This document shows, in pieces, positions 4,771 to 7,605 of a stretch of 29,392 nt of DNA. The notes under the pieces were generated by a model. The model was not told the DNA's origin, did not search any database, and saw nothing but the letters and a program-made list of their open reading frames with translations. Source of the DNA: a virus. The position numbers and the translations under genes were made by a program. The stretch covers positions 1 through 29,392 of the IMG/VR virus record IMGVR_UViG_3300046000_002739; one strand, written 5' to 3'. The stretch's first letter is position 1. Each line of letters starts with the position of its first letter.

Positions 4771-5037
4771 CTATTTTATCGCGTCCATCACCCTCTCAAT
4801 CGTCACATTCAAAGCATCGAATTCGTCCATCTTCCTAATAGCCCACGCCCGCTTCTGACCGTGGATTCCAAGGAACGGGTTCCGGTGACAGTCCTCACAT
4901 AAGGCTACCGCGGTGTACTGAGCGCCTTGCTTGATGTGGTGAGCCTCAGAGCCTTTCCTTGAGTCACAGACAGAGCAGGGAAGCTCTTTCACCAATCCAA
5001 GGTACGCCCTCTCTCTTGCATTGAGTTTATTGTTCAC
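4771..5037 (-). CDS. HNH-type nuclease, P1 Ref-like
   Basis: An 88-residue protein with the Cys/His pattern of small HNH/Ref-like nucleases: CSVC at residues 21-24, AHHI about 32-35, CEDCH about 47-51 and a downstream IHG. Ref (phage P1) is a RecA-dependent nuclease; Ref-like or NinX-type proteins in other phages assist recombination. Assignment is by motif only. The start is GTG at 5037, overlapping the upstream stop (GTGA), so it is translationally coupled. It is the last gene before the terminator at 4701-4730, and its neighbour two genes upstream is another nuclease, suggesting a DNA-processing set. Confidence 0.78.
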   Translation of the reverse strand: MNNKLNARERAYLGLVKELPCSVCDSRKGSEAHHIKQGAQYTAVALCEDCHRNPFLGIHGQKRAWAIRKMDEFDALNVTIERVMDAIK

Positions 5038-5363
5038 CGCAGGATCCTGTCTACTTCACGATTTGAAGCTTCCTGCGTTCGCCACACATCTATCCTGTCT
5101 TTGGCAGCTTCAATCTGCAGCCTCAACTGCTCCTCCTCAAACACCCACTTCTTCAAATTATCAAGAAGCTCTTTGTATTTCGGGTGCGAATACGCAAAAG
5201 CTTCTTTGTCCGCAATGTTCTTTCCCGGAGCCTCAAGGTACAGCATCGACTTCAAGCTCTTCCTGTACTCCTCACACCACCTTCGCTCACTCTTCACCCT
5301 CGCGTATTCACTTGCATTCTTCAGGATGAAGTCCACCGCCGCATTGGGATTTATCTCGTTCAT
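5034..5363 (-). CDS. Helical hypothetical protein
   Basis: A 109-residue, almost wholly helical, highly charged protein (ARVKSERRWCEEYRKSLKSM; later WVFEEEQLRLQIEAAKDRID), probably a coiled-coil oligomer. Small coiled-coil proteins of this look sit beside recombination nucleases in many phages, but I cannot name a family. GGAGATGATTC precedes the ATG at 5363. It overlaps the end of the upstream nuclease gene by 56 nt and the next gene by 4 nt. Confidence 0.75.
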   Translation of the reverse strand: MNEINPNAAVDFILKNASEYARVKSERRWCEEYRKSLKSMLYLEAPGKNIADKEAFAYSHPKYKELLDNLKKWVFEEEQLRLQIEAAKDRIDVWRTQEASNREVDRILR

Positions 5364-5670
5364 GAATCATCTCCTTAATCAATAGAATTCCAGAACCGTC
5401 TTTAACCATCTTTCCTGTGAATCGGAGGACAGACCAGCCAAGCCTTACCGCCTCGTTATACTTCTCACAGTCCTTTTCGTACCCACTGCCCCTAGTGTGC
5501 CTGCCACCACTGTAAGTCCCGCCTTCAATTTCTGCAGCTATCATTCGTGAGGGCCAAGAAAAGTCAAACCGCCAGCGCCTCGTCGGATGGAAACGATGCT
5601 CCATCAAGTACCCATCAAGCTTCAGGAGTTGAACCTGCGCTAAGAAAGAGAGTTCGAGTCCACTTCCCAC
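5308..5670 (-). CDS. PD-(D/E)XK-like endonuclease
   Basis: About 120 residues. The core RFHPTRRWRFDFSWPSRMIA then EIEGGTYSGGRHTRGSGYEKD and WSVLRFTGKMVKDG matches a widespread phage nuclease family related to DUF559/VSR-like folds. The catalytic set is probably the Asp of RFDF and the Glu of AEIEGG, and the conserved GGRHTRG-EKDCEKYN stretch is also present. I prefer the GTG at 5670 (GGGGAG 8 nt upstream). The frame is open back to 5853, but that part lies inside the preceding gene and looks like a shadow. A role in recombination or Holliday-junction processing is plausible, not shown. Confidence 0.8.
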   Translation of the reverse strand: MGSGLELSFLAQVQLLKLDGYLMEHRFHPTRRWRFDFSWPSRMIAAEIEGGTYSGGRHTRGSGYEKDCEKYNEAVRLGWSVLRFTGKMVKDGSGILLIKEMIHERDKSQCGGGLHPEECK

Positions 5671-5957
5671 CTTCCCAACTCCCCGCGGTTTCCCAGATTC
5701 CACTGACTCAGGATGTCCCTCTCTAACCGATTCCTTCTCGCCGGGACTTTGTTTAGAAAGTCTTGCAGCCACTGACGTCCAGCTTTGCCGCGACTTACTC
5801 TTTCCGCGATTAGGGATCTGACCTCGCAGCGGTGCCGATACTTTTCGGACCATTTATAGCCTCTCTCTGCCGCTTTAATGATGCTTCGATCATCTGATCT
5901 TCCACCATCAGACACCTCTTGCACACCTTCTGCAAATAAGTCGAGCGTAGGTTCCAT
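5640..5957 (-). CDS. Small phage protein, DUF7696-like
   Basis: A 105-residue protein. The stretch YRHRCEVRSLIAERVSRGKA, a helical middle and the ending QWNLGNRGELGRWE recall a small phage family with the pattern RHxCEVR ... QWxxGNRGExGxW (DUF7696, from memory). The ATG at 5957 has an AAGGAG 12 nt and an AAGGG directly upstream. Its first 49 codons overlap the preceding gene and its last 10 overlap the nuclease, an unusually long shared stretch. Residues before about 38 are low in pattern, so a later non-ATG start (for example GTG at 5915) is possible. Confidence 0.68.
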   Translation of the reverse strand: MEPTLDLFAEGVQEVSDGGRSDDRSIIKAAERGYKWSEKYRHRCEVRSLIAERVSRGKAGRQWLQDFLNKVPARRNRLERDILSQWNLGNRGELGRWEVDSNSLS

Positions 5958-6322
5958 CCCTTTTTTATCTCCTTTCCCTCTTTCCTAACCTCAGAAACAA
6001 TCCCACAAAGAGAATCACCAGCCTTTGCAAAGTCCTGAAATAATTTACCCTCGTCTTCAGGCTTTACGATGTGAGAGAGAATTTTCGTTCGTGTTTTATA
6101 TATAAGGTACATTTTTGTTTGCCCCATTTTTATGCCGCCCCTACGCAGTTCCAAAAACTTAGCGGCGCTCTCCAGCATTACCTCCGTTCCAACTATTCTT
6201 TCCCTCCATCCTTCTTCCAAAGGCCAACGTACCCGCAAATAACTCAATTGACGAGCATTCCATCCCCCTGCTTGGCTTTTCCCTTGCTCTATCAGTTCTT
6301 CAGTTATTTTTACTTTAGCCAT
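5810..6322 (-). CDS. Hypothetical phage protein
   Basis: A 170-residue basic protein. Residues 5-45 (ITEELIEQGKSQAGGWNARQ, then LSYLRVRWPLEEGWRERIVG) form a short domain I associate with small phage proteins of unknown function, in which a GGWN/QL...WP..GW pattern recurs. The rest is helical and lysine-rich, with two close cysteines (VCKRCL). The ribosome-binding site is weak (AAATAGAAAAA before ATG). It is the first gene downstream of the structured RNA at 6572-6719. The last 148 nt overlap the next gene, so the C-terminus would be coding in two frames. Confidence 0.7.
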   Translation of the reverse strand: MAKVKITEELIEQGKSQAGGWNARQLSYLRVRWPLEEGWRERIVGTEVMLESAAKFLELRRGGIKMGQTKMYLIYKTRTKILSHIVKPEDEGKLFQDFAKAGDSLCGIVSEVRKEGKEIKKGWNLRSTYLQKVCKRCLMVEDQMIEASLKRQREAINGPKSIGTAARSDP

Positions 6323-6372: not shown

Positions 6373-6571
6373 CTGGTGGGCATACCTAGCCCATCCCTAG
6401 ATTCAGGGATAAGCCTTCATCACTTAGCCGGAGCCGCATGACCCGAGAGCCTTTCGGTCAGTGGTGCTATCTTCGCCGCCACTTTGGGTGTTTCAGACCT
6501 ATCCCACAGTACCCAACTCTTCCTGCCCCCCTGTCGTTAAATCATGTCCGACGAAGGCAGTGAAGCCCAAT
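6373..6571 (-). other. Gene-poor leader with several hairpins
   Basis: No ATG-started ORF of useful length is visible. On the minus strand the stretch contains a hairpin ATCCCT/AGGGAT followed by TGGGC/GCCCA (6376-6411), a GACC-GA/TC-GGGTC hairpin (about 6439-6458) and GGTC...AGTGG/CCACT...GACC nested pairings (about 6455-6500). An open frame without ATG (6420-6536) overlaps these and is discussed in the findings. It would be transcribed only if the terminator at 6574-6599 is read through. Confidence 0.45.
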
Positions 6572-6719
6572 AGAAAAACCCCATTACGGCTTGGGTTTCA
6601 GGTCGCGGTAGAAGAGAGTAGTCAGAGTTACTCAACGCTACCGAAACCCAATGCGTAATGGGGTTCGTACTCTGAATACTTTCCGCTCTTCTACAGGCGA
6701 CCCGATTTTTCTCTCAGGC
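6572..6719 (-). ncRNA. Candidate structured small RNA or attenuator
   Basis: Bounded by a near-consensus promoter (6726-6754) and an intrinsic terminator (6574-6599), with no ORF inside. In transcript order: arm B (6702-6686), arm C (6674-6669), arm A (6665-6643), arm C' (6628-6623), arm B' (6616-6601), arm A' (6599-6577), then UUUUU. A and A' are complementary over 23 positions with two mismatches. B and B' match over about 15 positions with a small bulge. A and A' are each also near-palindromic and can fold alone, with complementary loops (UUACG/CGUAA). Interleaved arms mean the full A and B helices compete. No Rfam family is recognised. It lies between primase and nuclease block. Confidence 0.68.
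6574..6599 (-). terminator. Intrinsic terminator formed by arm A'
   Basis: On the minus strand GAAACCCA pairs with TGGGGTTT around a short loop, followed by a T-run (6574-6578). It ends the structured RNA and would also stop transcription entering the nuclease block from upstream unless the alternative fold prevails. Confidence 0.75.
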
Positions 6720-6725
6720 AAATAA

Positions 6726-6754
6726 ATATTAAATCAACTAAAAATTCCTGTCAA
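6726..6754 (-). promoter_or_regulatory. Near-consensus sigma70 promoter of the structured RNA
   Basis: Minus strand TTGACA (6754-6749), exactly 17 bp of AT-rich spacer, TAATAT (6731-6726); a start near 6719 is predicted. It lies just past the primase stop codon. Unlike the other promoters in the window it has no CGGA/TCCG operator in the spacer, so it may be constitutive and strong. Confidence 0.8.
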
Positions 6755-6768
6755 CAAAAAAAATGAGA

Positions 6769-7605
6769 CTAGACCAATTTTTCTTTCATGAGCCTACAAA
6801 GACTCCACAAACCCGCACGCTGGTGCAGGTCGTTGGCGTCTTCCCCGACTATAGGAGACATCACCCAAGGAAGCCCCGTGGCTTCAGCGGCTTTCTGACC
6901 AGTCCCAGAGGCATCGTTGTCGGCAATCACGATCCTAGTCCCGCCAATCCTCTCAGCGACGTAGGTCAGGTTGCCGGCAGAGAAGCAAACCCAGACTTCA
7001 GCCGACTGGTGCATTGAATTCACCGCCTGCATGATTGACAGACCTGTGGCGTATCCCTCACACAAGTACCTCAAATGCCCTGATTTAAGGTATCCCCGTT
7101 TCCCCAGCACAAAAACCGCTCCCTTTGTCCTACCCCCCGGGAGAAACAGCTTCTCCCCGCCCTCAGAGATCCTCTGCAGGCTCAACAGGTCATTTGTCGT
7201 GCAGTCCCGCATAGGAACCAACAGATTGCCCTCTAGGACCATCCCTAGGGCTTCAGGGAAGCCTTTGCGGGCAAGGTAGGGGTGAGGTGCCATCTTGGAC
7301 AGAGCAAGCGCTAAACCGGCTGCTTTCTCGGCGTTGGCCCGTTTCGTAGACTCCCGGTCCCTGTCAGCTTGAATTCGTACAACATCAACCCGCGGAACGA
7401 CCCGATTAACCGTACCGTCCGCCCGGTAGGTCGAGAAGTTCTCCATCGTGGCCCAGTTCTTTACGGATCCCCTAGAGCCATCCCAAATATAAGCGCCGTT
7501 CCTTTTCTTGGGTTTATCGTCCGTCTTGACCCTGTGCCACCTGTTATCTGAGAGGGCGTACTCCAGAACCAACCCATGTCCACGGGCAAAATCCACGAAG
7601 TCCAT
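6769..7605 (-). CDS. Toprim-domain DNA primase-like protein
   Basis: A 278-residue replication protein. A primase-associated N-terminal region (residues 1-80, W/Y-rich, DGSRGSVKNWATMENF) is followed by PYLARKGFPEA (109-119), common in phage primases just before the Toprim fold. The Toprim signatures are RYLCEGYATG with Glu183 and RIVIADNDASG with Asp229/Asp231, the expected metal-binding acidic residues. There is no DnaB-type helicase fused to it, so it is a stand-alone primase. The ATG overlaps the upstream methyltransferase stop as TAATG. It ends 15 nt before the promoter of the structured RNA. Confidence 0.88.
   Translation of the reverse strand: MDFVDFARGHGLVLEYALSDNRWHRVKTDDKPKKRNGAYIWDGSRGSVKNWATMENFSTYRADGTVNRVVPRVDVVRIQADRDRESTKRANAEKAAGLALALSKMAPHPYLARKGFPEALGMVLEGNLLVPMRDCTTNDLLSLQRISEGGEKLFLPGGRTKGAVFVLGKRGYLKSGHLRYLCEGYATGLSIMQAVNSMHQSAEVWVCFSAGNLTYVAERIGGTRIVIADNDASGTGQKAAEATGLPWVMSPIVGEDANDLHQRAGLWSLCRLMKEKLV

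Follow-up and report, generated by a model that had tools for sequence, protein, structure and literature searches.

A terminator-like leader RNA ahead of structured RNAs in phage genomes: a promoter-driven candidate attenuator

Described systems and the locus

Intrinsic-terminator attenuators are leaders that set a terminator against an antiterminator, as in the expression platforms of riboswitches or of the pT181 type, and they normally gate mRNAs. In the immunity RNAs of the P4/P1 type (cI/C4 RNA), a phage leader at a replication-gene operon decides early transcription through alternative pairings, and termination there is not of the hairpin-plus-U type; the put RNA of HK022 is a processive antitermination RNA. 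Rfam also holds family RF02932 (Betaproteobacteria-1 RNA), filed as an sRNA, on which nothing came up under either name in the literature searched. GOLLD, ROOL and OLE are presented (PMC12286853) as ornate large RNAs, structured RNAs of bacteria that were discovered mainly through bioinformatics; they differ from the RNAs of the present locus in size and sequence, and none of them gave an Rfam match here.

The window analyzed in this study is the whole of a 29,392-base record of a freshwater-type phage, and the element of interest is read on its minus strand, where a Toprim primase-like gene ends at 6769 and is followed by a promoter, the leader RNA, and, starting at 6322, a set of small genes (Table 1). 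Like the intrinsic-terminator attenuators, the locus has a promoter, overlapping alternative pairings, a hairpin with a U-tract, and a downstream product that read-through would reach; unlike them, its leader precedes mostly structured RNA rather than an mRNA, has a helix between its 5' end and the sequence behind the U-tract, and shows no leader peptide, known ligand, or antisense RNA. With the P4/P1-type RNAs, whose sequences were compared via Rfam only, it shares the setting of a phage leader with alternative pairings at a replication-gene operon, and it differs from them in that no separate processed antisense RNA is evident at the leader. The second RNA of the locus would fit the description of put, in that a structured RNA close to the 5' end of an early phage transcript would influence the elongating polymerase; this is a resemblance by description only, as put gave no match in the Rfam scan. 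That second RNA, in the window and in many relatives, is RF02932, whose model starts 2 nt behind the tail of the leader, contains none of the leader, and includes no terminator leader. Leaders of the intrinsic-terminator kind are already known; this leader family is itself new, as are the loop-docked terminator common to two otherwise different leaders, the helix between the 5' end and the sequence behind the terminator, and a putatively gated product that is mostly another structured RNA.

The leader and its pairings

The 148-nt leader (6719-6572) has a minimum free energy (MFE) of -58.7 kcal/mol, whereas its dinucleotide shuffles average -38.5 +/- 3.6 (z -5.6, 0/200), is free of minus-strand ORFs reaching 50 aa, and varies in length among its copies by indels that are not multiples of three. 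A first-pass annotation had described this stretch as a structured, promoter-driven, non-coding RNA with an intrinsic-terminator-like hairpin at its end, a description that is borne out here, and the positions that it gave for the arms, the promoter, and U5 are all exact on the minus strand. The arms do run to U5 as it proposed, but the conserved unit continues past its end at 6572 to GGGC at 6565, and RF02932 starts ten nt past that end, at 6562.

A scan of 4227 Rfam families returned no gathering-score match over 6719-6572, so that the annotation was correct in assigning the 148 nt to no known family; miRNA matches to the leader were set aside as sub-threshold hairpin look-alikes, the best of them falling on both strands. 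RF02932 passes its gathering score (49.4 bits) at 6562-6441 and is unmatched over 6719-6572, making the leader a neighbor of that family and not a member. Searches for distant DNA similarity among cultured phages and plasmids gave no match, and when 84,980 genomes of bacteria and archaea were scanned by pattern, the leader and the core of RF02932 were both absent.

Relatives were collected by way of the primase-like protein, which pointed to six contigs where a homologous RNA lies behind that gene or in its vicinity, and by two DNA pattern scans of IMG/VR, which produced 25 and 54 contigs, for a total of 44 parsed copies in phage contigs. Each copy is preceded by a sigma70-type promoter and ends in a U-tract, although the second search pattern required neither the U-tract nor anything behind it. 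A covariance model gave one sense match per contig, with the exception of a second match in L030 (13.5 bits, E 0.43), and nothing convincing on loci having RF02932 alone. The MAFFT alignment comprised 38 copies; for arms too variable to align, 3' arms were swapped between copies (20,000 permutations), a test whose z values are inflated by the relatedness of the copies. The compensatory changes that would be expected in the arms of homologous phages are strongly present (swap tests; 0/500 shuffles), and the leader is a real, undescribed RNA element.

Table 1. Positions of the promoter, leader, and second-RNA features in the window
Feature	Position	Strand	Remarks
sigma70-type promoter TTGACA-17-TAATAT	6726..6754	(-)	TTGACA 6754-6749; TAATAT 6731-6726
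P1, 5' hairpin	6700..6719	(-)	6719-6714 with 6705-6700; covariation
Full arms B and B'	B 6702-6686; B' 6616-6601	(-)	both present
P2 loop, core of arm B (GUAGAAGAG)	6686..6694	(-)	pairs with B' 6616-6608
Arm C	6669..6680	(-)	pairs with C' 6628-6617, 11/12
Arm A with extension, 5' side of terminator helix	6636..6665	(-)	A 6665-6643
D hairpin, GAGUA/UACUC	6616..6633	(-)	GAGUA 6633-6629, UACUC 6620-6616; MFE; caps A:A'
C' and B'	6608..6628	(-)	C' 6628-6617; B' 6616-6608
A' with extension, 3' side of terminator helix	6579..6607	(-)	A' 6599-6577
U5 tract straight after A'	6574..6578	(-)	U4-U7 in relatives
Post-U tail CUAUUGGGC	6565..6573	(-)	P0 partner of transcript 5' end (6719-6711)
RF02932 (Betaproteobacteria-1 RNA), second structured RNA	6441..6562	(-)	85.6 bits; gathering 49.4; E 1.1e-14

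The promoter is the best in a 500-nt region (10/12 matches), and across 42 distinct relatives it averages 9.0 matches of 12, compared with 5.7 in the upstream background. Six nt separate its -10 element from the first base of P1 in the window, a distance shared by 33 of the 42 distinct copies; with the -10 fixed 6 nt before the 5' strand, the pairing of P0 and P1 starts at about nucleotide +1. The minus-strand assignment follows from the promoter, the U-tract, and the G-U-rich P0 and P1, and a strand test of G-U versus A-C cells in the C helices (33 vs 28) gave no decision.

P1 is paired in 94.5% of cells and includes 3 double-change pairs (row shuffles 0/5000; swap z 5.8, 0/20,000), and the 26 pairs of A:A' are paired in 95% of cells, with 10 double-change pairs and a loss of the signal on sliding. 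Taken together over the 38 copies, the two helices are paired in 94.9% of cells and have 13 pairs changed on both sides (120 such cells), a result that none of 500 shuffles reaches and that a one-column slide reduces to about 50% pairing. The outer part of A gave a swap z of 7.8 (0/20,000). The letters of A and A' are conserved beyond the need for pairing, with ACGCAUGGG and CCCAGCCGU near-invariant and a CA/GC internal loop, and all parsed copies have the hairpin-then-U-tract layout of an intrinsic terminator, with U4-U7 following A:A', a helix supported by covariation. A simple terminator scan misses the A:A' hairpin because it allows loops of 3-8 only.

Arm C, which the first-pass annotation had placed at 6674-6669, extends to 6680-6669, and C' to 6628-6617. 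In the swap test, C:C' averaged 23.1 with its own partner versus 12.3 with swapped partners (z 21.5, 0/20,000) while its letters are almost unrelated between copies, and there is little doubt about this helix despite the relatedness of the copies because each copy pairs 6-17 bp of nearly unrelated letters. The docking of the P2 loop on B' scored 17.3 versus 12.2 (z 9.9, 0/20,000), and the P2 stem had a z of 6.5 (0/20,000). Of the longer B:B' pairing previously proposed, the P2-loop core is thus strongly kept, but the extension GGUCGC:GCGACC gave a weak signal (swap z 3.6); this extension and a pairing of the P1 3' arm with CCUGA before A', for which no covariation was found (899/5000 shuffles), are the pairings needed only by the alternative fold, and their support is weak or nil.

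The loop of the D hairpin holds most of C', which makes D an alternative to C:C', and its own signal is weaker (swap z 3.5, reached by 8/20,000 permutations). UUACG/CGUAA (UNACG/CGUNA), which had been put forward as a kissing interaction, does covary, but the same pairs equally form the middle of the A:A' helix, so that the covariation does not single out kissing; as a long-range contact, P2-loop:B' is the better supported of the two.

Directly behind the U-tract lies a tail, CUUUUGGGC and variants, that is complementary to the first nucleotides of the transcript, and RNAalifold picked the resulting helix, P0, unprompted. In P0, 94.4% of cells are paired and 5 cells have double changes, a level that 1-2 of 500 shuffles reach (moderate support), and the swap z is 6.1 (0/20,000); its double changes convert the first position from G-C to A-U and the fourth from C-G to U-A, and in L047 both of its sides are one nucleotide longer. 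The helix measures about 14 bp, stops 2 nt short of where the RF02932 model begins, and uses sequence past the U-tract that is present in read-through RNA only. P0 and P1 are mutually exclusive because they use the same 5' strand, and P1 is the better supported by covariation.

The order in which these helices may form was predicted by nested nearest-neighbor folding, which allows no pseudoknots, of the 44 copies with the RNA ended at successive 3' positions. For RNA ending before A', C:C' was predicted in 40/44 and B:B' in 41/44; for RNA ending at the U-tract, A:A' in 37/44, plus P1; and for RNA with the tail, P0 in 25/44, with C:C' back in 18/44 and A:A' still favored in 26/44. In the window, once the tail is included, the P0/B/C fold replaces the terminator fold as the MFE structure (-65.7 vs -62.1 kcal/mol with P1). 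The fold order in these nested predictions is attenuator logic, and in the window and many (not all) relatives it agrees with the mutual exclusion of B/C and A that had been suggested for this element, as does the overlap of D with C' in 18/38 copies. Strict exclusion is nevertheless in doubt: a single pseudoknot can accommodate loop:B', C:C', and A:A' on paper and is excluded by linker length in only 6/38 copies, and leaders of a second class keep loop:B' together with A:A' and without C:C'.

RNAs and genes behind the leader, and a second leader class

Within a few nt of the leader, 41/44 copies have a G-rich, non-coding, structured stretch, which cmscan identified as RF02932 in the window and ten loci and which BLAST sorts, in the others, into several further types that have no Rfam match. 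No comparable promoter was seen between the leader and this second RNA; the best promoter-like scores inside A'/U-tract are 5-9 of 12, for CTGAAA-17-TTTTAT-like sites that are not convincing, though the 9/12 of L065 and L084 is still a possible promoter. In L056, L065, and L084, a protein gene stands directly behind the leader and there is no second RNA, P0 being lost in the first and partly kept in the other two. The product of this gene starts (M)NFYPFHIGDY and is presumably DUF1376-like; a gene start overlapping the leader, with its Shine-Dalgarno sequence in A', was considered less likely than an in-frame GTG with AAAGGA a few nt later. A fresh promoter ahead of the next gene in L029 and L045 makes the RNA unit there separate from the gene behind it.

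The genes and RNAs behind the leader differ among phages, and a structured RNA comes directly next to it, which leaves the earlier proposal that it specifically gates a "nuclease block" (6322 to 4771) unsupported as worded. The proteins of that block at 5308-5853 and 4771-5037 (both minus strand) have no Pfam match at 1e-3 and match PHROGs 503 and 1588, the function of both of which is unknown; their reading as nucleases is based on the look of the sequence (HNH-like CxxC...H).

Several further features of the downstream RNAs were observed. Behind RF02932, a hairpin sits between the two copies of a direct repeat (window 6440-6345, minus strand, CCGGCUAAGUGAU ... CCAGCCAAGUGAU; L026, CGAAGAGCAGA ... 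CAAAGAGCAGA; L011, CUCCAAAGGGCAG ... CACCAAAGGGCAG), its letters varying between phages and being repeated within each, and the RF02932 model may be truncated at its 3' end because it stops ahead of this repeat-flanked hairpin. Within RF02932, an extra helix in the window (6490-6460, minus strand), L026, and L027, with AAGGG/CCCUU versus AGAGG/CCUCU around GGCGAAG, covaries by eye; it is absent from the Rfam structure, and its combination with the final hairpin of that structure would amount to a pseudoknot. In L004, L009, L029, L045, L007, L051, and L058, GGGGUAGGGG or a close variant followed by a short U-rich stretch is found 200-350 nt behind the U-tract, where it ends two otherwise different types of downstream RNA, which suggests a shared 3' end or terminator of these RNAs. 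The related contigs L018 and L020 have a G-rich, apparently non-coding CCAGGUGGAGCGGACGACACC... after the end of the Toprim gene, at the place where relatives have RF02932.

Three RF02932 loci (L086, L089, and L097) have a different leader with the same logic, and a scan for this second class found 29 distinct loci, bringing the two classes to 73 loci. The class-2 order is promoter, loop hairpin, B', long A:A' hairpin (GCCGUUAAG/CUUAACGGC), and U6, and B' is the pairing partner of the loop (GUGGAAN, GUGAGAG, GUAGAAG), with a swap z of 8.1 (0/20,000). The terminator is present in this class and C:C' is absent, and neither P1 nor P0 was seen in class-2 leaders. They are followed by RF02932 (five loci) or another structured stretch, and the downstream RNAs of L076 (class 1) and L102 (class 2) share 84% identity over 181 nt; because the same downstream RNA is found behind both classes, leaders and downstream RNAs are exchanged as modules. 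The core common to both classes is P2-loop:B' with the A:A' terminator, and P1, P0, and C:C' belong to class 1. In L125, two tRNA genes (Rfam matches, 1900-2167) lie just upstream of the class-2 leader.

A candidate attenuator and its rivals

With confidence that is about evenly balanced, we read the element as an attenuator, a terminator leader with its own promoter that would meter the phage RNA lying behind it. The conserved promoter would start an RNA at about 6719, and the nascent RNA would form P1, P2 with its loop docking on B', and the C:C' helix; once A' is made, the long A:A' hairpin and the U-tract would serve as an intrinsic terminator. A fraction of polymerases would pass this terminator, and the read-through RNA would close its 5' end on the post-U tail by P0 and run on into RF02932, such that the leader would set the amount of downstream RNA. 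The promoter, pairings, U-tract, tail, adjoining second RNA, and interchange of modules are all observed in the loci. Termination and read-through would both have to occur, and the size of the read-through, the interconversion of the folds, a signal that would bias them, and the purpose of the arrangement likewise belong to the model. The conserved promoter at a fixed distance, the covariation of P1 and A:A', the retention of C:C' and loop:B' in differing letters, the U-tract of all parsed copies, the reach of P0 past that tract, the predicted fold order, the class-2 leaders ahead of the same downstream RNAs, and the lack of a promoter seen before the second RNA argue for the attenuator; counting against it are the pseudoknot that linker length permits in most copies, the missing covariation between the P1 3' arm and CCUGA, the absence of C:C', P1, and P0 in class 2, the preference for A:A' that persists in 26/44 copies with the tail, and prophage-like loci in which RF02932 comes right after the primase gene without a leader.

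No ligand, leader peptide, protein, or antisense RNA was found that might be the signal of such a switch. A riboswitch, for which a ligand-binding aptamer ahead of genes of a single pathway would be expected, finds no support, as the downstream genes and RNAs differ between phages and the Rfam scan found no known aptamer. Nor does a type III toxin-antitoxin RNA, expected as a repeated pseudoknot unit ahead of a ToxN-like toxin: the unit is not repeated (one sense covariance-model match per contig, bar L030), and the small genes downstream in the window have no Pfam match. More tentatively, and with rather more doubt than belief, we suggest a modular cassette of interchangeable knotted terminator leaders, of at least two classes with loop:B' docking and an A:A' terminator in common, and interchangeable structured RNAs (RF02932 and several types lacking an Rfam match), in which the leader would regulate an RNA effector instead of a gene and the 5' end would read passage of the terminator via P0.

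If the stretch from 6719 to the U-tract (about 145 nt) were itself the product, a stand-alone trans-acting sRNA, the RNA behind it would be a neighbor reached by incidental read-through or from an upstream operon. Such an sRNA would account for the promoter and terminator that every copy possesses, for letters of A and A' (ACGCAUGGG, CCCAGCCGU) that are conserved beyond what pairing needs, for the three loci with a gene and no second RNA behind the leader, and for the fresh promoter of the next gene in L029 and L045, yet we find it doubtful given that the leader carries a conserved post-U tail complementary to its own 5' end, that the second RNA lies directly behind in 41/44 copies with no promoter seen for it, and that class-2 leaders precede the same downstream RNAs.

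The adjacency of the two domains, the RNAalifold consensus on P0, and the P0 fold as the MFE of the window with its tail (-65.7 vs -62.1 kcal/mol) point instead to one long structured RNA of about 300-450 nt, closed by P0, of which the leader would be a constitutive 5' domain and the U-tract a part of the fold, with little termination. We regard this as unlikely. The U-tract and A:A' are kept without a second RNA and without an A-rich 5' partner, the latter in L004, L047, L069, and L082, so the U-tract is not kept for P0 only; class 2 has the terminator with neither P0 nor P1 seen; and of the two mutually exclusive 5' helices, P1 has stronger support than P0.

Leader-trailer stems in rRNA are sites of precursor cleavage by RNase III-like nucleases, and P0, which is about 14 bp long and stops 2 nt ahead of the RF02932 model, might likewise be a processing site at which RNase III or a comparable enzyme generates the 5' terminus of the mature second RNA. 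A precursor stem of this kind would leave the terminator, P1, and C:C' unexplained and is not seen in class 2, and we judge it very improbable. The low-complexity look of some arms is all that would favor a structure arisen by chance or a piece of a protein-coding gene, a reading that is refuted by the covariation, along with the fold z, the swap tests, indels that are not multiples of three, and the lack of a minus-strand ORF, and to which we give next to no credence.

An undescribed, strongly covarying RNA family, of two classes and 73 loci, is here added to phage genomes, and the orphan Rfam family RF02932 gains a context, standing in these phages behind a dedicated promoter and a terminator-like leader at a place where it is swappable for other structured RNAs. 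If the attenuator reading is true, the gated product would be a non-coding RNA and one helix of the leader would form solely after read-through, an unusual arrangement that lends itself to direct testing.
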